Source: Streptomyces sp. H27-C3 (lineage in GTDB: Bacteria > Actinomycetota > Actinomycetes > Streptomycetales > Streptomycetaceae). Taken from it: a stretch of DNA of 64,000 nucleotides. Below the pieces are notes generated by a model. That model did no database searches and was not told the DNA's origin. It saw nothing but the letters and a program-made list of their open reading frames with translations. The DNA is taken from contig NZ_JASITA010000006.1 of NCBI RefSeq assembly GCF_030063415.1, forward strand, positions 1 to 64,000. Reading direction: 5' to 3'. Shown here one piece after another: positions 24,040 to 50,677 of the stretch (position 1 is its first letter; every line of letters starts with the position of its first letter). Position numbers and translations under genes: made by a program.

Positions 24040-24975
24040 TCAGGCGCTCTTGCCGCCGCTGCCGCTACCGGCGATTTCCTTCCTGGCTGCCTTCTTGGCT
24101 TCCCCGTCGGCCGGCTTCGCGTATTCCGTGCCGGCCTCGGGGGCCTCGTCCGCGCCCGCCGGTCCGAGCGGCTCCTCGGGCAGGACGCCGAGTGCGAGGT
24201 CCCGTACGGCTTCCGCCTCGCGGCGGACCAGCCGGAACCACATGAAGACCACGAAGCCCGCGAAGACGAACCACTCGCCGGTGTAGCCCAGGTTCTGGAA
24301 GGCCTTGAGGTCCAGGCCGCTGCCCTGTGGGGCCACCGCGGGGACGGGCCGCAGACCTGCGTCGCCCTCGCTGAGGGTGACCCAGGCGTCGTACATGTCG
24401 TACGGCACGAGGTTCACCAGCGATGCCGCGCTGATCATCCCCAACTGGCCCTTGGGCAGGCCGCCCTCCGCGTTGACCCCGTCGGTGCTCGCGTTCTCGG
24501 AGGCCTGGAGCGCGCCGGTCACGGAGACTTCGCCCGGGGGCGCGGCGGGGGCCTTGGCGCCGGGGGGCAGCCAGCCGCGTACGACGGGCAGTGCCTTGCC
24601 GTCGTCGGTGCGCAGCAGCGTCAGTACGTAGGAGCCGAGCTTGTCGTCCAGCTTCCGGCCGGGCACGACGAACTGCTCCGCGTACCGCCCGGTCGCCGTC
24701 GCGTGCCGCCCTGAGGTCTCGGTGTCGACGGGCAGCAGATCGTCGAGCGGTACGGCGCTCTGCTTGCCCGGATCCGGCTTCGCCTCCTCGGCCTGGTGGG
24801 ACTCGACGCGGTCTTCGAACCGGCCGAGCTGCCAGGACCCCATCAGGACACAGAAGGGGATGGCCAGCACGACGAAGAGGTGGAGCCCCCACCAGCGGGG
24901 CGTCAGCAGGAACCGGTACACCCCTCCAAGGTACGGTCCCCGCCTCTGCCACCGGCCCGCCGGGGTCGTGCTCAT
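24040..24975 (-). CDS. SURF1-family cytochrome oxidase assembly protein
   Basis: The 311-residue protein has the SURF1 layout: an N-terminal helix (HLFVVLAIPFCVLMGSWQLGRFEDR, with the family GxWQLxR motif), a periplasmic domain with VVRGWLPPG, and a second helix near the end (WFVFAGFVVFMWFRLVRREAE). SURF1 helps insert heme into the aa3 oxidase. The tail is Ala/Lys/Glu-rich. The ATG at 24973-24975 overlaps the stop of the ABC permease, so this housekeeping gene is coupled to the NRPS transport genes. Confidence 0.92.
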   Translation of the reverse strand: MSTTPAGRWQRRGPYLGGVYRFLLTPRWWGLHLFVVLAIPFCVLMGSWQLGRFEDRVESHQAEEAKPDPGKQSAVPLDDLLPVDTETSGRHATATGRYAEQFVVPGRKLDDKLGSYVLTLLRTDDGKALPVVRGWLPPGAKAPAAPPGEVSVTGALQASENASTDGVNAEGGLPKGQLGMISAASLVNLVPYDMYDAWVTLSEGDAGLRPVPAVAPQGSGLDLKAFQNLGYTGEWFVFAGFVVFMWFRLVRREAEAVRDLALGVLPEEPLGPAGADEAPEAGTEYAKPADGEAKKAARKEIAGSGSGGKSA

Positions 24976-25768
24976 CCGAGGGTGATCTGCCGGAACCTCC
25001 GCAGGGCCAGCAGCATGAACCCGCCGATGATCACGCACGCGCACAGCAGCGCGTACGGGATGGCGTGCACGACGGGCCACGCGTCACCGACCGCGATGCC
25101 GCCGGGCGGCGGGTTGCCGAACAGTTGGCGCACCGCCGACGCCGTGGCCGAGACCGGGTTCCACTCGGCGACGGTACGCAGCGGGCCCGGCATGGAGGCG
25201 GTCGAGACGAACGCGGACGAGATGAACGTGACCGGGAAGAGCCAGATCAGCCCGGCGCTCTGGGCCACCTCGACGCTGCGGGCCATCAGGCCGATGGTGG
25301 CTCCGACCCACGACATGGCGAACGCGAAGAGCAGGATGAGCAGATAGCCGGCCGCCGCCTCGCCGAAGGACGTACCGATGCGCCACCCGACGAGGAGTCC
25401 GCACAGGGACGTCACGGTCAGGGTGACCACGCTCATCATCAGGTCCGACAGGGTCCGCCCGAGGATCACCGCCATGCGCGGCATGGGCAGCGAACGGAAC
25501 CGGTCCACGATGCCCTTGTCCATGTCGTGGGCGAGCCCCAGCGCCGTGAAGGCGGCGTTGAAGGTGACGGCCTGCGCGAAGATGCCGCCCATCAGGAACG
25601 TGCGGTAGTCGGCGCCGCCCAGGCTGCCGCCGAAGACATAGGCGAGCAGCAGGACGAACATCACGGGCTGGACGAGCGCGGCGATCACCGACCCGGGGGT
25701 GCGGCGCAGATTCAGCAGATTGCGCCACGCGATGATCGTGGAGTCCCGCGCGACCCGCTTCACGGACG

Positions 25769-25772
<4 letters not shown>
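24972..25772 (-). CDS. ABC-2-type permease, DrrB-like
   Basis: The 266-residue protein has six membrane helices and the ABC-2 signature near its centre and end (FRSLPMPRMAVILGRTLSDLMMS, WLFPVTFISSAFVSTASMPGPLRTVAEWNPVSATASAVRQLFG). With the ATPase immediately upstream (four-base overlap) it forms a DrrAB-type exporter, the usual self-resistance and export pump of actinobacterial biosynthetic loci. Its position behind mbtH and the NRPS makes the NRPS product the likely cargo. Confidence 0.93.
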
Positions 25773-27069
<1,297 letters not shown>

Positions 27070-27073
<4 letters not shown>

Positions 27074-27272
27074 CCGACGTGCACGCGCGCGCTCCTGGGC
27101 GTGATGTCCGTCCAGTTGCGTTCCACGTATTCCAGGCAGGCACTCTGATCGGCCGGCCCGAAGACCTGGTCCCAGCCCGCGGGTATGTCGGCGAACGAGG
27201 GCCAAAGGGCGTGCTGTTCCTCGGAGTTGACGACGACGCGGTGCTCGGTGCGCGGGTCGTCGAAGGGGTTCG

Positions 27273-27276
<4 letters not shown>
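27070..27276 (-). CDS. MbtH-like protein
   Basis: This 68-residue protein matches the MbtH family, with the NSEEQHALWPSFADIPAGW motif and the late CLEYVERNWTDITP. MbtH-like proteins bind NRPS adenylation domains and are needed for their folding or activity. It lies directly after the NRPS with a four-base overlap (ATGA) on each side, so it is made with the synthetase. Confidence 0.96.
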
Positions 27277-37727
<10,451 letters not shown>

Positions 37728-37817
37728 GTGTATTTCACCTCTGCGCCGGGGCGCGGCGTCGGCGGCCTCGCGTCGGGATGGGGGTCGAACGGCCGCGTGC
37801 CGGAAAGAAAATGCCGA

Positions 37818-37845
37818 CGAGTATTCGGCGAGTAACTGGCGAGTA
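37818..37845. promoter_or_regulatory. three CGAGTA direct repeats at 11-bp spacing upstream of the NRPS
   Basis: CGAGTA starts at 37818, 37829 and 37840, with further matches around it (GGCGAGTA in the last two). Direct repeats at 11-bp steps are the binding pattern of SARP activators and of PhoP in Streptomyces. They lie 91 bases upstream of the NRPS start in the divergent control region. Confidence 0.5.
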
Positions 37846-38072
37846 CGCGATCGGCGCGCCCGTCCGAAACTGTCGAACCGGATCGGTCTGGAATTACGGC
37901 GTCAGATCACGGTCAGCGCCCGGCGGGGCCGATTCCAGACCCCATCGGAAGGCCAATTCCATGCGTGTCCGTGAACCTCGCCGCACCTCGCCGAACTTCC
38001 GCTGGCGTACTGATCCACCGTCAAGCCTCCGATGTCGACATCGCTTCCTGCGCTGTCCACAAGGGGTTCGGA

Positions 38073-38102
38073 GTCACATGGGCAGCGGATTGCCCATGTG
38101 AC
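38073..38102. promoter_or_regulatory. perfect 12-bp inverted repeat in the NRPS / secreted-peptide control region
   Basis: GTCACATGGGCA (38073-38084) and TGCCCATGTGAC (38091-38102) flank GCGGAT. It may be an operator or a leader hairpin for either divergent gene. A 12-bp tandem repeat (CAATGTCACGAC twice, 38182-38205) follows; no gene is seen in the remaining 584-base interval. Confidence 0.55.
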
Positions 38103-38311
38103 ACAGGACACAACCCGCCCCCAGGCCAAGCCGCCCCGTCTCCGGCGCCGAATGCCCTGCGACTGGTGGCAGGGGCACGATCAATGTCACGACCAATGTC
38201 ACGACCAGCGCGACGAGGCTTTCCGTAAGCCTTCCACCAGCCGCTCGCCAGCTTTCTCAACATCATTCCGCAGTGCTTTCCGTGAACGTTTCCACAAGAC
38301 TTGGAGAACGC

Positions 38312-38635
38312 GTGAAAATTCCTGTATCTGTTACACGCTGGGGTACCGCCGCCGCAATAGTCGGAACCCTGTTCATATCGGCCGTACCGACGGCCACGGC
38401 GTCCGGTACGCCGACCCACAGTTCGGCTTCCCGTGCAGGTGAGGCGACGAATTCGGCTCGAGCGAGCGAGGTGCCCGCAGGCACGAACAGGATGGGGTCG
38501 CTGCGCGACACACAGGGCATGAATTTCTGCCTGCTGGCCCGCTGCACGGTGGGCGGAGCACCGGATTCATCGGGCCCGAGCAATACGCAGGGAGTGAATT
38601 TCTGCCTACTGGCGGTCTGCTCGATACGGCCCTGA
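38312..38635 (+). CDS. small secreted protein with two repeated Cys-X4-Cys motifs
   Basis: The GTG at 38312 follows TTGGAG with five-base spacing and gives 107 residues. A signal peptide is clear: basic start, hydrophobic core (TAAAIVGTLFISAV) and a likely cut after PTATA. The mature part is Ser/Ala/Thr-rich, then carries two copies of one motif: TQGMNFCLLARC and TQGVNFCLLAVC, separated by about 17 residues and each followed by a short polar end. Each copy could close a disulfide ring. I know no family for it. It is divergent from the NRPS, sharing a 584-base control region; whether it belongs to that pathway is unknown. Confidence 0.8.
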   Translation: MKIPVSVTRWGTAAAIVGTLFISAVPTATASGTPTHSSASRAGEATNSARASEVPAGTNRMGSLRDTQGMNFCLLARCTVGGAPDSSGPSNTQGVNFCLLAVCSIRP

Positions 38636-38835
38636 TGGGCATCGGTGATACGGAGTTGAGAGGCGCGTGGGAAGGACGCTGATCACGGCGCAGGGCCGGG
38701 GCTGAGCCCGCTTGGCGGGTACGGGTCTGGGCCCGTCCTGCCCCTCCGGGTGGAGACGGGGCGGGGCCCTTCGCACCGGGTCTGGGGCCCTGCGCACGGG
38801 CTGCGGTGACTCTCGTACCGGTACGCGTTCCCACC

Positions 38836-38911
38836 CCACCCCCTCAGCCCGTCCGGCGTTTGAGGACCTGGGTCTGGGGCGGAGCCCCGGTTTCGGGAAG
38901 GGGCGGGTAGA
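38836..38911 (+). repeat. Streptomyces intergenic repeat with GGGGCGGAGCCCC hairpin
   Basis: The sequence CAGCCCGTCCGGCGTTTGAG followed by GGGGCGGAGCCCC and GGGAAGGGGCGGGTAG is, from memory, a very common intergenic repeat in Streptomyces genomes. It lies in the 352-base gap between the secreted-peptide gene and the S9 peptidase; it may serve as terminator. The rest of that gap shows only G-rich simple repeats. Confidence 0.7.
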
Positions 38912-38987
38912 GGTGAGCCGCGCAGGACCCGCAGCTCACCCATTCACCGCACCTGACCGCTCACCCACTCACTTGCTCATCGCACCC

Positions 38988-40802
38988 TCACCCCAGGTGG
39001 CGCTTCGCGAAGTCCAGCTCCAGCCGGACCTGCTTGATCCGCTCCTCGACCACGAGCGACCCGTGCCCGGCGTCGTACCGGTACACCTCGTGTGTCGCGC
39101 CCCGCTCCGCGAGCCGGTCGACGTAGTTCTCGACCTGCTGGATGGGGCAGCGCGGATCGTTGACGCCCGCCGAGATGTAGACCGGCGCCCGCACCGCATC
39201 GACGTACGTCAGCGGGGACGACGCCTCGAACCGCTCGGGCACCTCTTCCGGTGTCCCGCCGAGCAGCGTGCGGTCCATCGACTTCAGGGCTTCCATCTCG
39301 TCGTGGTACGCAGTGACGTAGTCGGCGACCGGCACCGCGGCCAGCCCCACCGCCCAGGCGTCCGGCTGCGTGCCCAGCCCGAGCAGGGTCAGATACCCGC
39401 CCCACGAGCCACCGGCCAGCACCAGCTTCTCCGGGTCCGCCAGCCCGGACGACACGGCCCATTCACGCACGGCGTCGATGTCCTCAAGCTCGATCAGGCC
39501 GACCCGGTGCTTGAGCGCGTCGGTCCAGTCGCGCCCGTACCCGGTCGAACCCCGGTAGTTGACCCGTACGACCGCGTACCCGTGGTCGACCCAGGCCGCG
39601 GGCCCACTCGCGAACGCGTCGCTGTCGTGCCAGGTCGGCCCGCCGTGGATCTCGAAGACGGTCGGGAACGGCCCGGAGCCGGTGGCAGGCTTCTGCACGA
39701 GCGCATGAATCCGCCCGCCGGGCCCCTCCACCCAGGCATCCTCGACCGGCACGGACGCCGGCGCCTTCGTCCCCGGCGGATCGAGCACGACGCCCCCGGA
39801 GGTCGACCGCACGACAGGCGGCAGCGCCGCGGAGGACCACAGGTATTCAACGGACCCGTCGGGCCGGGCAGTGGCACCCGACACGGTCCCGGCAGGGGTG
39901 TCGACCTCCACGAGCTGACGCGTGGAGAGGTCGTAGCGCCGCAGCTCACTACGGGCCTCGAAGCTGTGCGCGATGAGCAGCGCCGACCCGTCCGGATACC
40001 ACTCGGCCGATACGTCGCCGGGCAGCTCGATCCCCAGCTCGCTCTGCTCGCCCGTGGCGATGTCCCACACCATGGGCTCCCAGCGACCGCGCCGCTGGTG
40101 CCCCACGAGGAGCCGGGTGTCGCCGTCGACGGGCGCGAACCCGAGCACTTCGAGGCCGAGTTCGACCTCGCCGCCCTTGGTGTCGTCCAGCTCGGACACC
40201 GCGGTCCCGTCCGTCCGCACGACCCGTAGCGCGGAGTGCATGGCGTCCCCGTGCTCGGTGTGCTCGATGGCGATCAGCGTCCCGTCGTGCGACAGATCCC
40301 CGACACCGGCGGACTCCCGATGCCGATAGATCTCGACGGGCGCGGCCCCGGCTCCGGCCGGCACGACGTAGATGGTCGACCCGTCCTCATCGGTGGACCG
40401 CCCCACGACAGAGGTCCCGTCCCGCCCGAGCGCGAGCCCACCGGAGTACGACGCTTCGAGCCCCGCGGTCGCGGGCTCGTCGGCGCCACCACCGAAGGGC
40501 TGGCGCATCCACACCCCGAACTCGTCCCCGTCGGTATCGCTGAACCACCAGATCGCTTCCCCGTCGGGCGTCAGCACCCCGTCGGTGGTTCCGTTCGGCC
40601 GGTCGGTGACCTGGCGTTGCGCGCCGGTGGCGCGATCCCACGCGTACAGCTCGTACGTCCCGGTCGCATTGGAAACGAACAGCGCACGGTCGGGCGCGTC
40701 TTCGGCCCAGTCGGGCAGCGAAACGCGAGGGGCCCGGAACCGCTGCTCCCAGTCGGGCACGGATGCGGCGGCGGCCTGCGCAGGCCCAGTGTTCTCAGTC
40801 AT
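38988..40802 (-). CDS. S9-family (prolyl oligopeptidase-type) serine peptidase
   Basis: The 604-residue protein has an N-terminal beta-propeller of WD-like repeats (for example YELYAWDRATGAQRQVT, PMVWDIATGEQSELG) and a C-terminal alpha/beta hydrolase with the triad Ser466 in GGSWGG, Asp549 in GVNDPRCP and His580 in DAGHGS. There is no signal peptide, so it is cytosolic and probably trims short peptides. The ATG at 40802 gives MTENTGPAQ; an upstream ATG adds 25 residues without domain content. It is the last gene before the accessory stretch. Confidence 0.92.
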   Translation of the reverse strand: MTENTGPAQAAAASVPDWEQRFRAPRVSLPDWAEDAPDRALFVSNATGTYELYAWDRATGAQRQVTDRPNGTTDGVLTPDGEAIWWFSDTDGDEFGVWMRQPFGGGADEPATAGLEASYSGGLALGRDGTSVVGRSTDEDGSTIYVVPAGAGAAPVEIYRHRESAGVGDLSHDGTLIAIEHTEHGDAMHSALRVVRTDGTAVSELDDTKGGEVELGLEVLGFAPVDGDTRLLVGHQRRGRWEPMVWDIATGEQSELGIELPGDVSAEWYPDGSALLIAHSFEARSELRRYDLSTRQLVEVDTPAGTVSGATARPDGSVEYLWSSAALPPVVRSTSGGVVLDPPGTKAPASVPVEDAWVEGPGGRIHALVQKPATGSGPFPTVFEIHGGPTWHDSDAFASGPAAWVDHGYAVVRVNYRGSTGYGRDWTDALKHRVGLIELEDIDAVREWAVSSGLADPEKLVLAGGSWGGYLTLLGLGTQPDAWAVGLAAVPVADYVTAYHDEMEALKSMDRTLLGGTPEEVPERFEASSPLTYVDAVRAPVYISAGVNDPRCPIQQVENYVDRLAERGATHEVYRYDAGHGSLVVEERIKQVRLELDFAKRHLG

Positions 40803-46574: not shown

Positions 46575-47804
46575 ATGGAGACATTCCCCAAGATCATCTC
46601 GGTGGATGACCACACCGTCGAGCCTCCCAACGTCTGGCGGGACCGACTCCCGTCCAAGTACCGCGACATCGGTCCTCGCATCGTCCGCGGGCCGGTGAAG
46701 CAGCTGACCTTCATCGGCGGCAAGTTCGCCCCCCTCATGGGCGCACCCGGTGACGACGGCCCCGTCGCAGACTGGTGGATCTACGAGGACCTGCATCGCC
46801 CCCTCACTCGCCTGGACACGTCCGTCGGCTACAGCCGCGACGAGATCAAGCTCGAAGGCATCACCTACGAGCAGATGCGCCCGGGGTCGTTCTCCGTCCC
46901 CGAACGCCTCGCCGACATGGACATCAACCACGTCCAGTCGGCCCTCTGCTTCCCGACGTTCCCGCGTTTCTGCGGCCAGACTTTCACCGAGGCGAAGGAC
47001 CGTGAGCTGGGCCTGCTCGGGGTGCGGGCGTACAACGACTGGATGGTCGAGGAGTGGTGCGGTCCGCTGGCGCAGGGCCGGCTGATACCGCTCACGCTGG
47101 TGCCGCTTTGGGACGCGGAGCTGGCTGCCGCCGAGGTACGCAGGAATGCTGCGCGTGGCGTCCGGGCCGTCTGCTTCTCGGAGATCCCTCCGCACCTGGG
47201 GCTGCCGTCCATCCACACGGACTACTGGGACCCCTTCCTGCAGGCCTGCGACGAGACCGGCACGGTAGTTGCCATGCACATCGGTTCGTCCTCGCGCATG
47301 CCGTCCACGTCTGCGGATGCACCGGCGGCCGTCGGGTCCACGATCACGTTCGCCAACTGCTGTTTCTCGATGGTCGACTGGCTGATGAGCGGCAAGTTCG
47401 ACCGCTTCCCGAACCTCAAGATCATGTATGCCGAGAGTCAGATCGGGTGGATCCCGTACGTACTGGAGCGCGCGGACGTGGTCTGGGAGGAGAACCGCGG
47501 CTGGGGTGGCGTGGCCGACAAGGTATTTCGTCCGCCGTCGGAGCTATTCCGTGAGCACGTCTACGGATGCTTTTTCGACGATGCGTTCGGCCTGAAGAAC
47601 CTCGACTCGATCGGTGTCCCGAACGTCTTGTACGAGACGGACTACCCGCACAGCGACTCGACGTGGCCGAAGTCCAAGGAGGTAGGCGAGTCTCAGATGG
47701 GCCACCTGGCGCCTGCGGTGGTGGAGCGCATCGTCCGCGGCAACGCGATCGACCTCCTCGGCTTGACCCCGGACGGCTTATGGTCCAGTTCGGCGTCCGG
47801 CTGA
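46575..47804 (+). CDS. amidohydrolase-family protein (ACMSD-like TIM barrel), paralog 1
   Basis: The 409-residue protein belongs to the amidohydrolase_2 group (aminocarboxymuconate-semialdehyde decarboxylase-like): IISVDDHTVEP with the first metal-ligand region, NHVQSALCFPTFPRF, MHIGSSSRMPS with a conserved His, MYAESQIGWIPYVLERAD and the terminal YETDYPHSDSTWP with the metal Asp. Family members decarboxylate or hydrolyse aromatic acids and related compounds. It resembles the protein at 49439 over its whole length and shares its promoter palindrome. Confidence 0.88.
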   Translation: METFPKIISVDDHTVEPPNVWRDRLPSKYRDIGPRIVRGPVKQLTFIGGKFAPLMGAPGDDGPVADWWIYEDLHRPLTRLDTSVGYSRDEIKLEGITYEQMRPGSFSVPERLADMDINHVQSALCFPTFPRFCGQTFTEAKDRELGLLGVRAYNDWMVEEWCGPLAQGRLIPLTLVPLWDAELAAAEVRRNAARGVRAVCFSEIPPHLGLPSIHTDYWDPFLQACDETGTVVAMHIGSSSRMPSTSADAPAAVGSTITFANCCFSMVDWLMSGKFDRFPNLKIMYAESQIGWIPYVLERADVVWEENRGWGGVADKVFRPPSELFREHVYGCFFDDAFGLKNLDSIGVPNVLYETDYPHSDSTWPKSKEVGESQMGHLAPAVVERIVRGNAIDLLGLTPDGLWSSSASG

Positions 47805-47957
47805 TGGTTCAGGCTTGTCCTCAACCGCTGGGCTGGGGGGTGACTGGGTGCCGTACGTGAGTGCGGACCTACGATTCCTGGCGCCGCTCTGGGCAGGGTC
47901 GGAACTGGAAACGGAGCGTCAGCCACCGAGTCCGCCCCCGGCCCTGCTCTGATGCAA

Positions 47958-48521
47958 TCAGCTTGTGTCGTCGTTTCGGCGGGCTGGGGGTAGGAGGAGA
48001 TCCCGTTCGGGGTGCTGCTCGCCGGTGACGCGGCCCTGGACGCCGAGGTCTATTCGCGCAGCTTCGTGAAACTCGTTGATCTCTCGGAATGCCGCACGGC
48101 TCCGTGCACGCCAGTCGTCCAAAGTTCCGGTGATCTTGCCTTCGGCCTGCCAATCGAGCTGCAGAGCTGCGGCGTTCAGCTGGTGGCCGGCCTCTACGAC
48201 GGCATCACCGCCGAGCAGCATGACTTGCTCGAATACCCGCCCTCGCATGCGAGAAGCTTCCCTCAGCTCCTCAAGCAAATCGGCCTCGGGCTTCCCGCTC
48301 GGACGGATACCTTCCTTGTGCTCGTAGAGCTGTACAGCCAGGAAGATGCTCGCTCGCACCCTGTCGACGTAACCTCCGTACGCGTCGATCTTCCTGTCGT
48401 CCCACCGCGTTAGCAGCACATACCGGTTGCGGCTCCGCTCCATGGCGTAAGTCGCCAGGTGCGTCGTGAGCGCGCCCAGCAGCACGGCTGCAATCGTTAC
48501 GAGCTGCTCAACGGCCACCAA
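47958..48521 (-). CDS. single-pass membrane protein of unknown function
   Basis: The 187-residue protein has one N-terminal helix (VEQLVTIAAVLLGALTTHLATYAM) followed by a long helical cytosolic region (SRNRYVLLTRWDDRKIDAYGGYVDRVRASIF...). Proteins of this shape are common in Streptomyces mobile DNA, function unknown. Upstream, at 48,540-48,577, the stretch CTTAAAGATGTCTAGAGG and following ATCTTAGGAG resembles the GntR-type operators found near 56 kb. Confidence 0.7.
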   Translation of the reverse strand: MVAVEQLVTIAAVLLGALTTHLATYAMERSRNRYVLLTRWDDRKIDAYGGYVDRVRASIFLAVQLYEHKEGIRPSGKPEADLLEELREASRMRGRVFEQVMLLGGDAVVEAGHQLNAAALQLDWQAEGKITGTLDDWRARSRAAFREINEFHEAARIDLGVQGRVTGEQHPERDLLLPPARRNDDTS

Positions 48522-48807
48522 CTGGTCCCCCAGACATGAGACTTAAAGATGTCTAGAGGATCTTAGGAGTGAGACGCGAGACGCGTCCCCCCAAGAGCCA
48601 TGCCGCTGTGCCCAGGCCCTGCGGCTGACCATCCGCCGCTCGTCGGAGCTACGAGAAGCTACAAGGCACTGAAACAGGAGGTGTCCCTGCCCCGGTTTTG
48701 GTCATCCGGGCAGGTCGAGCCACTTGGAGTGACGCTGTGACAGCTGTGACACTCCCCCTGTTTCAGCTGCTTGCTCCGGCAGGCCATGCCGAGTTGAGAG
48801 CGCTCAA

Positions 48808-49257
48808 CTACAGGAACAAGCCAAGAACGTTGTCGATTGACCAGTTCTGCCAGCTCATGGCGAACAGCGCGACGACGGAGATCAGCGCCATCATCAGGTT
48901 CTGCCCCTGCTCGCCCCAGTCGTGAATCATCAGAATGAAATAGATCAGGTTGAGCACGAGCCCGCAGACGAGCGCGATGGGCGTCAGGAAGCCTGCGATG
49001 AGGCCGAGGCCGAGAGCCAACTCCGCGTAGGCGACGATGTACGCCATCAGGCGCGGGTACGGCTTCGCAAACCGGTTGAAACCATAGCGCACGAAGGGCC
49101 AGCGATGTTTGTCGGCGATGCCCGCGGCCCAGGTAATGCCCCCGCCGCCGAACCATGTTGACTTGTCCTTGTGGCGCCAGCTCTCCAACCACCACAGGCC
49201 GAGACCGATTCGAAGTACGGCCAGCCACTCGGCCCCGCTGAACCAGATCGACTGCAT
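48808..49257 (-). CDS. DoxX-family membrane protein
   Basis: The 149-residue protein has four membrane helices and begins WLAVLRIGLGLWWLESWRHKD, as DoxX proteins do, with the ELALGLGLIAGFLTPIALVCGLVLNL centre. DoxX-type proteins serve as quinol-linked or redox-stress membrane subunits; here it is divergent from the second amidohydrolase and shares a regulatory palindrome with both. Downstream, around 48,727-48,754, a GGAGTG/CACTCC hairpin may end the transcript; no other gene is seen in 48,522-48,807. Confidence 0.88.
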   Translation of the reverse strand: MQSIWFSGAEWLAVLRIGLGLWWLESWRHKDKSTWFGGGGITWAAGIADKHRWPFVRYGFNRFAKPYPRLMAYIVAYAELALGLGLIAGFLTPIALVCGLVLNLIYFILMIHDWGEQGQNLMMALISVVALFAMSWQNWSIDNVLGLFL

Positions 49258-49276
49258 CGTGTACCCCTCTCTGCGC

Positions 49277-49303
49277 GCTGAACTGACGATGCGTCAGTTC
49301 AGC
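49277..49303. promoter_or_regulatory. 27-base perfect palindrome in the doxX promoter, site B
   Basis: GCTGAACTGACG and its exact reverse complement flank ATG; the core CTGACG-ATG-CGTCAG matches site A. It lies 20 bases upstream of the doxX start. Confidence 0.8.
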
Positions 49304-49378
49304 TGATGCGGATCGATCTCGCAAGGGGTGAAGTTCTTTCCATCTGCTTGCTGTTGATCAGGTGAGCCCATAACCTAA

Positions 49379-49397
49379 ATCTGACGAGTAGTCAGAT
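49379..49397 (+). promoter_or_regulatory. CTGAC-N5-GTCAG palindrome, site C
   Basis: ATCTGAC-GAGTA-GTCAGAT lies 42 bases before the GTG of the second amidohydrolase and differs from sites A and B by one core base. Confidence 0.7.
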
Positions 49398-49438
49398 ATG
49401 GGCCGGGCGGAACCGGCGAGCAGCAGGAGGCAACCGAC

Positions 49439-50677
49439 GTGACCAGCGATGCGAGTGACGCCACGGATCTGCCCAGGATCATCAGCGTGGACGACCATGT
49501 GATTGAGCCCGCTCACCTCTTCGATACCTGGCTTCCGGCCAAGTACCGCGACAAGGGGCCGCAGCCCTTCACTGCGGGTATCGGCGAGCTGCAGTACATC
49601 GGTGGGAAGTACCGATTCACCACGGATCCGGCCGGCCAGCTCACCGACTGGTGGAGGTACGAGGGGCTGGTCTTCCCGTACAAGAGGATCATTGCTGCGG
49701 TTGGCTTCTCCCGGGACGAGATGACGCTTGACGGCATCACACGGGAGCAGATGAGGCGAGGCTGCTGGGACCCGAAGGCCCGCCTGGCGGACATGGACGT
49801 CAACCACGTGGAGGCATCGCTCTGCTTCCCCACCTTCCCGCGTTTCTGTGGGCAAACGTTTGCCGAGGCGCAGGACAAGGAGGTGGGTCTCGCCTGCGTG
49901 CGCGCGTACAACGACTGGATGGTGGAGGAGTGGTGCGGTGACAGCGGCGGCCGGCTGATCCCGCTGTGTCTCATCCCGCTGTGGGACATCGACCTTGCGG
50001 TAGCCGAGATCAGGAGGAACGCCGCGCGCGGCGTCCGTGCGGTGACCTTCAGCGAAATCCCGACGTACCTCGGGCTGCCGTCGATTCACTCGGGTTACTG
50101 GGATCCATTCTTCGCAGTGTGCGAGGAGACCGGCACCGTCGTGAACATGCACATCGGATCTTCGTCACAGATGCCGGCTGCTTCGCCGGACGCACCGCCC
50201 GCCGTCCAGGCGGCCTTGAGCTTCAACAACGCCATGGCGTCCATGATGGACTTCCTCTTCAGCGGTGTCCTGGTGAAGTTCCCACGCCTCAAGCTGGCCT
50301 ACAGCGAGGGGCAGATGGGCTGGATTCCCTACGCACTGGAGCGTGCCGACACAGTGTGGGAGGAGCACCGTGCCTGGGGTGGGGTCAAAGATCTAATCCC
50401 CGAGCCGCCGTCCACGTACTACTACCGGCAGATCTTCTGCTGCTTCTTCCGCGACAAGCACGGCATCGCCGCAATCGACGCCGTCGGCGTCAACAACGCC
50501 ACCTTCGAGACCGACTACCCGCACGTCGACTCCACCTGGCCGCACACGAAGCAGGTGGCTGCTGACCATATGGCAGGCCTTCCGGAGGACGTGGTGTACA
50601 AGCTGCTGCGAGGCAACGCCATCCGTATGCTGGACCTGTCCTTCGATCGGGACCGGGCGGCTGCTGTAACTGCCTGA
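49439..50677 (+). CDS. amidohydrolase-family protein (ACMSD-like), paralog 2
   Basis: The 412-residue protein parallels the one at 46575: IISVDDHVIEPAHLFDTWLPAKYRDKGP, GFSRDEMTLDGITREQMRRG, CFPTFPRFCGQTFAEAQDKE, AYNDWMVEEWCG, MHIGSSSQMPA, YSEGQMGWIPYALERAD and FETDYPHVDSTWPH. The shared motifs cover both metal sites, so both copies appear active. The strongest differences are in the loop around residues 50-85, which may set substrate choice. GCAGCAGGAGGCAACCGAC precedes the GTG start. Confidence 0.88.
   Translation: MTSDASDATDLPRIISVDDHVIEPAHLFDTWLPAKYRDKGPQPFTAGIGELQYIGGKYRFTTDPAGQLTDWWRYEGLVFPYKRIIAAVGFSRDEMTLDGITREQMRRGCWDPKARLADMDVNHVEASLCFPTFPRFCGQTFAEAQDKEVGLACVRAYNDWMVEEWCGDSGGRLIPLCLIPLWDIDLAVAEIRRNAARGVRAVTFSEIPTYLGLPSIHSGYWDPFFAVCEETGTVVNMHIGSSSQMPAASPDAPPAVQAALSFNNAMASMMDFLFSGVLVKFPRLKLAYSEGQMGWIPYALERADTVWEEHRAWGGVKDLIPEPPSTYYYRQIFCCFFRDKHGIAAIDAVGVNNATFETDYPHVDSTWPHTKQVAADHMAGLPEDVVYKLLRGNAIRMLDLSFDRDRAAAVTA

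Follow-up and report, generated by a model that had tools for sequence, protein, structure and literature searches.

Within the window, a 64,000-nucleotide stretch of Streptomyces sp. H27-C3, a short gene for a secreted-type peptide is divergent from a large NRPS gene, with a 584-bp intergenic region between them. The genes and features are:

24972-25772, minus strand: ABC-2 type permease (PF01061)
25769-27073, minus strand: ABC exporter ATPase, DrrA type (TIGR01188)
27070-27276, minus strand: MbtH-like protein (PF03621)
27273-37727, minus strand: three-module NRPS of 3484 aa, C-A-T three times plus a C-terminal thioesterase
38067-38092, minus strand: SigK-type promoter-like site towards the NRPS, CAATCCG...CTCCGAA (exact pattern match; score 23.9)
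38127-38152, plus strand: SigK-type promoter-like site towards the peptide gene, CAAGCCG...GCGCCGAA (score 19.1 against a 99% shuffle threshold of 13.5)
38312-38635, plus strand: peptide coding sequence, 107 aa, GTG start, an open frame (homologues and alignment)
38312-38401, plus strand: predicted signal peptide (simple hydropathy and AxA pattern, alignment)
38402-38512, plus strand: variable low-complexity linker of 37 residues (alignment, signal-pattern script)
38513-38545, plus strand: repeat 1, QGMNFCLLARC, residues 68-78 (sequence, alignment)
38588-38620, plus strand: repeat 2, QGVNFCLLAVC, residues 93-103 (sequence, alignment)

Elsewhere in the window, two amidohydrolase (PF04909) genes are found near each other, at 46575-47804 and 49439-50677 (span 46575-50677).

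The peptide and its family

The 107-aa frame at 38312-38635, with a Sec-type signal pattern and two near-identical repeats, was confirmed as the initial annotation had described it. A GGAG at 38303-38306 stands five bases 5' of the GTG start, and GGAG-like ribosome-binding sites precede most starts among the family members; a simple coding-potential caller missed the ORF. A basic n-region, a hydrophobic core and AxA-like cut sites, together the pattern of a signal peptide, are present in 26/26 members, as called by a simple script and not a trained predictor. Several candidate cut sites occur in the window peptide, and by the same simple pattern cleavage is likely after the AxA ending at residue 30. 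Its C-terminal block carries TQGMNFCLLARC and TQGVNFCLLAVC, that is, QGxNFCLLAxC twice. AlphaFold2 gave no confident fold, with a mean pLDDT of 51.7 for the whole peptide and 48.2 for the repeat block.

In the collections searched, relatives of the peptide are restricted to Streptomyces. Pattern matching in the GTDB genome collection picked out 56 stretches, 22 of which encode a relative, giving 22 named peptide loci, all in Streptomyces. Among 392 Streptomyces genomes there were 16 raw matches, comprising 13 intact peptides, one pseudogene (genome G165) and two (G217 and G230) that were dismissed as chance on reading. Every one of the 13 cassette genomes has a single strong match. When 396 genomes from across the phylum were searched with a C-terminal block profile, two gave matches, and both of these are Streptomyces; a plasmid collection gave no match. 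An early homologue search had returned 22 rows, 4 of them true members and 18 discarded; four of the discarded rows were read and the remainder were dropped solely for their frame and their E-value, which was 0.001 or worse.

The alignment of 26 members (the window peptide plus 25 relatives) has twelve invariant residues: Q68, G69, C73, L74, L75, C78, G88, Q93, G94, C98, L100 and C103. The family repeat consensus is QGxN[F/L]CLL[A/S]xC. All 26 members have exactly two repeats, spaced 12 to 17 residues, and the protein ends four residues past the last cysteine in 24 of them, five in one and seven in one. The pN/pS ratio is 0.28 in repeat 1 and 0.29 in repeat 2; over the first 25 codons it is 0.94, a value biased upward because these codons are unaligned.

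Against Pfam and NCBIfam the window peptide returned nothing at E up to 1. When four members were scanned, single weak matches appeared for other members only (best E 0.042); the sole Pfam match at E up to 1 was a weak one to the YSIRK signal, and the chaplin profile was unmatched. A four-member profile had no PDB match at E up to 10. By these comparisons the peptide is a member of a new, so far unnamed protein family. The initial annotation had stated that the product matches no known family, and the empty Pfam, NCBIfam and PDB searches with the window peptide or the profile bear it out; its suggestion that relatives might always carry two copies of the repeat holds for 26/26 members. Homologues do exist, as 25 aligned relatives, and the repeat is conserved in them, twin and with the twelve invariant residues throughout.

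The two repeats differ in a regular way at the variable position of QGxN, where one has Gly and the other Phe in 21/26 members. The order is Gly/Phe in 10 and Phe/Gly in 11, and none of the 26 has Gly/Gly or Phe/Phe. The exceptions are the window peptide (Met/Val), L046 and L047 (Trp/Met), L056 (Gly/Ala) and L058 (Lys/Leu). On a tree of 25 NRPS sequences, midpoint-rooted only and excluding locus L027 with its broken NRPS, Phe/Gly members occupy two separate spots, the nine-member clade L037-L045 and the pair L031 and L036. Both groups nest among Gly/Phe members, and the repeat flanks are unmoved in the alignment. As read from this tree, the arrangement would have switched at least twice, and since the flanks stay put, the letters changed and the repeats were not shuffled. 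The complementarity in 21/26 suggests joint action of both repeats, and we infer that the two contact each other. It speaks against the earlier proposal that the precursor is cut into two bioactive units, for which an informal look noticed no conserved processing site.

A five-gene cassette

The same NRPS adjoins the peptide gene on the opposite strand at 24/24 loci, counting L027, where it is broken, and L028 and L023, where it is incomplete or short. In L027 (3090-9508; strain WZ.A104) the NRPS is fragmented in the gene calls, probably by draft frameshifts. Locus L029 belongs to a sequenced strain, SirexAA-E. The first C domain of the NRPS (C1) is found at E <= 1e-100 in 13 of the 392 genomes, a set identical to the 13 genomes with an intact peptide. 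The peptide thus tracks with the NRPS, as the initial annotation had thought it might, at 24/24 loci and in 13/13 NRPS-bearing genomes of 392; the two samples share several strains and the counts are not additive. The C1 bit scores of cassette members (at least 371.2) are set off from those of the next NRPS relatives (at most 327.6). At 17 next-nearest NRPS loci an upstream secreted twin-CX4C frame of the peptide's kind was found in none, versus 2/2 positive controls; a loose pattern gave frames at 6 of these 17 loci, all rejected by eye, and some of the 17 outgroup matches may start elsewhere than the NRPS N-terminus.

In 11 wider neighbourhoods the NRPS is present in all, and MbtH, the ABC ATPase and the permease are present in all nine that reach that far. 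Besides these four and the peptide, no gene recurs in more than two of the 11. With surroundings that differ and no other recurrent neighbour, the cassette appears to be a unit of five genes. A RiPP maturation enzyme is absent from the recurring neighbour set of the 11 genomes, which consists of the NRPS, MbtH, ABC ATPase and ABC permease only.

Genome G165 carries a decayed cassette (L078 10331-10642; G165:C96 near 90.3-90.6 kb). Its peptide gene is frameshifted and lies directly beside a 24-aa remnant of the ABC ATPase (83% identical), and NRPS and MbtH are unmatched within 14.8 kb around the peptide, with the contig end about 4 kb past the locus. The best C1-like match, elsewhere in that genome, reaches only 8.1e-78. 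On the simplest reading, G165 would have lost NRPS and MbtH and its peptide gene would have decayed; the match was set aside as a pseudogene.

Among solved structures in the PDB, C1 is best matched by 7c1k/7c1h/7c1p, which we take to be the rhizomide (RzmA) starter C domain, and by the CDA synthetase, followed by EntF and ObiF1. The A-domain motifs are alike across the three modules, within and between species, which suggests three residues of one kind; the residues of the A domains were picked out of the motifs by eye, following GrsA numbering. From this domain content and the exporter, the NRPS product may be an exported N-acyl tripeptide-like metabolite. A 2,3-DHB-AMP ligase is not part of the recurring cassette in the 11 genomes. 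Its model scores above the cut-off in 3/13 cassette genomes and above 600 bits in 6/13, and at most 359 bits in the other seven, the window's genome included. A catechol siderophore was set aside as a general reading on these counts, and a catechol start appears unlikely as a rule across cassette genomes; in the six genomes with matches above 600 bits it may still apply.

Control region

The intergenic regions between peptide and NRPS (280 to 584 bp, with the NRPS starts of L040 and L045 set by hand) contain two conserved elements, which are one motif in opposite orientations. The initial annotation had supposed a control region shared by the two genes, and the pair of opposed SigK-type promoter-like sites fits this. 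The pattern TTCGG-N13-15-CGGATTG occurs 42 times in 13 genomes versus once for a reversed control, and 4 of the 42 sites fall in cassette intergenic regions. A loose promoter pattern, composed after viewing the alignment, is present in 21/24 and 23/24 regions.

Seventeen non-cassette sites (13 loci) were viewed in context, hand-chosen and non-random, and including all four of the window's genome. Read as CAATCCG...CCGAA, 14 of them are followed within about 0.55 kb by a fitting gene: sigK at four, a sigK fragment at one, molybdopterin oxidoreductase at four, a fasciclin lipoprotein at two, and an amine oxidase, a familyless secreted protein and a hydrolase at one each. Three sites, two in G000:C114 and one in G059:C44, have no fitting gene. 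Representative SigK proteins at the motif loci score 289-296 bits against NF007228 (cut-off 226), and further profile matches there are RskA (PF10099), fasciclin, molybdopterin, amine oxidase, DUF1365 and photolyase; only some neighbour genes were profile-scanned, the others being named by N-terminal likeness.

A matrix built from 14 non-cassette sites exceeds the 99% shuffle level in 18/24 peptide-ward and 19/24 NRPS-ward regions, in a test that is not fully independent because the training sites were found by an exact pattern from the cassette regions. Both directions pass the threshold in the window. Thirteen of the training sites were seen in context and the 14th (G264:C1:931304) was only listed; four viewed sites were excluded from training, the three without a fitting gene and the one before the hydrolase. 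The matrix fails on the peptide side in L040, L042, L043, L044, L046 and L047 (6/24) and on the NRPS side in L042, L043, L045, L046 and L047 (5/24). In 17 of the 18 passing peptide-ward regions the site ends between 42 and 67 bases 5' of the start codon; in the window the distance is 159.

A CRP-type site (GTGN6CAC) was rejected, with 7/24 intergenic regions versus a shuffle mean of 4.6. No sigma-70-type promoters were found, terminator-like sites numbered 2 versus 1.1 in shuffles, and Rfam had no match in 37000-39500.

Two motif sites elsewhere are recorded as observations. In G127 (L120 5015-5135) a second opposed SigK-type pair, 95 bp apart, sits between molybdopterin-oxidoreductase-like and amine-oxidase-like genes, a divergent layout as at the cassette. 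In G386 (L118 3970-4794) the gene directly 3' of a SigK-type site encodes a protein of 274 aa that begins in a signal-like way and falls in no Pfam family; it is a candidate further member of the SigK regulon.

The genes at the motif loci are those of the mycobacterial SigK-RskA (ECF19) system, whose published promoter is CCATCC...CCGAAT. SigK is above the cut-off in 11/13 cassette genomes, including that of the window, and just below it in one more (219.6 of 226 bits). With SigK above the cut-off in 75/101 of a genus sample as well, it is not peculiar to cassette genomes. Elsewhere in these genomes the intergenic motif stands ahead of sigK and further genes of the SigK-RskA type. The cassette is therefore probably a member of the SigK (ECF19) stress regulon, with one stress sigma factor apparently turning on both the peptide gene and the NRPS gene. 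In G005 (L122 4841-5945), the thirteenth cassette genome, the promoter-like site is kept, but all that is seen of SigK is a 126-aa piece close to an RskA-like frame, which may reflect a sequencing frameshift or decay.

In the parts of the literature drawn on here, SigK sites are described as conserved across Actinobacteria and a cysteine bridge is discussed (PMC7509140), while the stimulus of SigK is called obscure and mycobacterial mpk83 and mpk70, with putative SigK sites, show a modest rise in light (PMC9861118). RskA decreased upon UV exposure in a soil actinobacterium (PMC8965627), and in Rhodobacter singlet oxygen calls up genes for photolyase and cyclopropane fatty acids through the RpoE-ChrR system (PMC7074977). 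The inducing signal that acts through SigK in Streptomyces may be photo-oxidative or envelope stress, and not a need to scavenge nutrients.

Proposed role

Our leading reading, held tentatively at a probability of about 0.42, is that the peptide would be an extracellular partner protein (a carrier, a stabilising or sequestering protein, or a means of self-protection) of an exported acyl-tripeptide-like metabolite with which it is co-induced by stress. Under envelope or oxidative stress, SigK would activate both arms, peptide and NRPS. The NRPS would build an N-acylated tripeptide-like metabolite through a putative starter-type C domain, three similar A domains and release by the thioesterase, and the ABC pump would move it out. 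The peptide, exported by Sec, would close a disulfide ring in each repeat (CLLxxC); paired with each other, these rings would act as a single extracellular binding unit for the metabolite. The invariant block of the peptide would then bind a constant ligand; similar A-domain motifs and a constant peptide block are compatible with a fixed ligand, as a matter of consistency and not proof. Speaking for the partner role are the linkage of peptide and NRPS, the promoter-like sites facing both genes, the C1 matches and the Gly/Phe complementarity. Speaking against it are the low-confidence AlphaFold2 models, the EntF and ObiF1 matches of C1, the DHB-AMP-ligase matches in six cassette genomes, the regions in which the promoter matrix fails, the wide occurrence of SigK in the genus and the Met/Val repeats of the window peptide. 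In a more demanding version, which we regard as doubtful, SigK would fire the divergent promoters of a two-part system in which the acyl-tripeptide and the dedicated twin-disulfide-ring protein are co-secreted and function when complexed with each other but not alone. This would make a class of 'metabolite plus custom extracellular receptor' distinct from the enediynes.

The peptide could instead be active itself, as a disulfide-ring signal or antimicrobial working in parallel or synergy with the NRPS product and perhaps cut in two. Its signal pattern, two conserved CX4C motifs and variable leader-like segment are precursor-like, and its likely co-regulation with the NRPS would suit such a role. 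The repeats are, however, complementary and not equal (one Gly, one Phe in 21/26), the net charge past residue 30 is near balance (-3 to +4), unlike typical cationic antimicrobials, and a free-standing signal would be expected sometimes to occur without the NRPS, an intact case of which was not found in the genomes searched. We consider this reading unlikely.

Rather unlikely, too, is a metal or redox site built from the four cysteines. The peptide would then act outside the cell as a buffer of thiols or metal within the SigK response, and the NRPS would make a metallophore or its ligand. All four cysteines are invariant, three similar A domains could yield three like ligand groups, and cysteine-bridge sensing is discussed for SigK in the part of PMC7509140 used here. 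A simple thiol buffer would not need the invariant Q, G and L around the cysteines, though, and no iron or zinc regulator box was seen by eye in the intergenic regions, whose conserved elements fit SigK-type sites.

We judge improbable a ribosomal/non-ribosomal hybrid in which the peptide is a covalent substrate, joined to the NRPS product by the starter C domain or the thioesterase. The recurring cassette is without a loading enzyme to supply a donor to C1, and peptide and NRPS co-occur one-to-one; but the Sec-type signal should remove the peptide from the cytoplasm, and C1 resembles acyl-type starter domains. The prospects are equally slim for a surface-active or structural, chaplin-like peptide that coats hyphae along with a lipopeptide surfactant. 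Hydrophobic CLL cores, low net charge and the secretion pattern would agree with it, whereas Pfam including chaplin is unmatched at E up to 1 except for the weak YSIRK signal match, each genome has one strong match, and most Streptomyces are without the peptide (13 intact among 392 genomes). That the frame is spurious or untranslated is scarcely credible: it is short, starts with GTG and was missed by the simple caller, yet the repeat pN/pS is about 0.28, GGAG-like ribosome-binding sites precede most starts and there are 25 aligned relatives.

Discussion

The NRPS, MbtH and exporter are ordinary; neither a twin-ring peptide alongside an NRPS nor the link to SigK was found in the open-licence literature searched. 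Several known systems share parts of the arrangement, and the enediyne apoprotein comes closest in concept. Enediyne apoproteins, such as the neocarzinostatin apoprotein, are small secreted disulfide proteins encoded with the genes for the metabolite that they bind. The peptide is likewise a small secreted-type protein, with disulfides predicted here, encoded beside biosynthetic genes. It differs in consisting of repeats on a long tether, with no PDB match even at E 10, and in its partner enzymes, an NRPS here and an enediyne PKS there; metabolite binding is hypothetical in the present case. Chaplins are small secreted Streptomyces proteins with paired cysteines, as the peptide is a small, secreted-type Streptomyces protein with paired cysteines, but the peptide has no Pfam match, and its CX4C spacing and QGxN context are distinct. 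Starter-C synthetases (CDA; 7c1k/7c1h/7c1p) provide the best solved matches of C1, ahead of EntF and ObiF1, and the cassette resembles them in having MbtH and an ABC exporter in the operon; it departs from them in its three similar modules and its standing divergent ribosomal peptide. The mycobacterial SigK-RskA system (ECF19; fasciclins MPT70/MPT83) is echoed by a Streptomyces motif that precedes sigK and by the RskA, fasciclin, amine-oxidase and DUF1365 genes at motif loci, whereas the excerpts of PMC7509140 and PMC9861118 drawn on here mention neither an NRPS nor a twin-CX4C peptide.

With the peptide, a Streptomyces NRPS that is so far uncharacterised gains a partner open to testing. SigK activation is a likely induction route and, if it holds, a silent cluster could be switched on deliberately. 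The SigK regulon, best known from mycobacterial antigens, would in that case gain specialised metabolism, and the cassette would put to the test the idea that bacteria send out small non-ribosomal metabolites together with proteins dedicated to carriage or protection.
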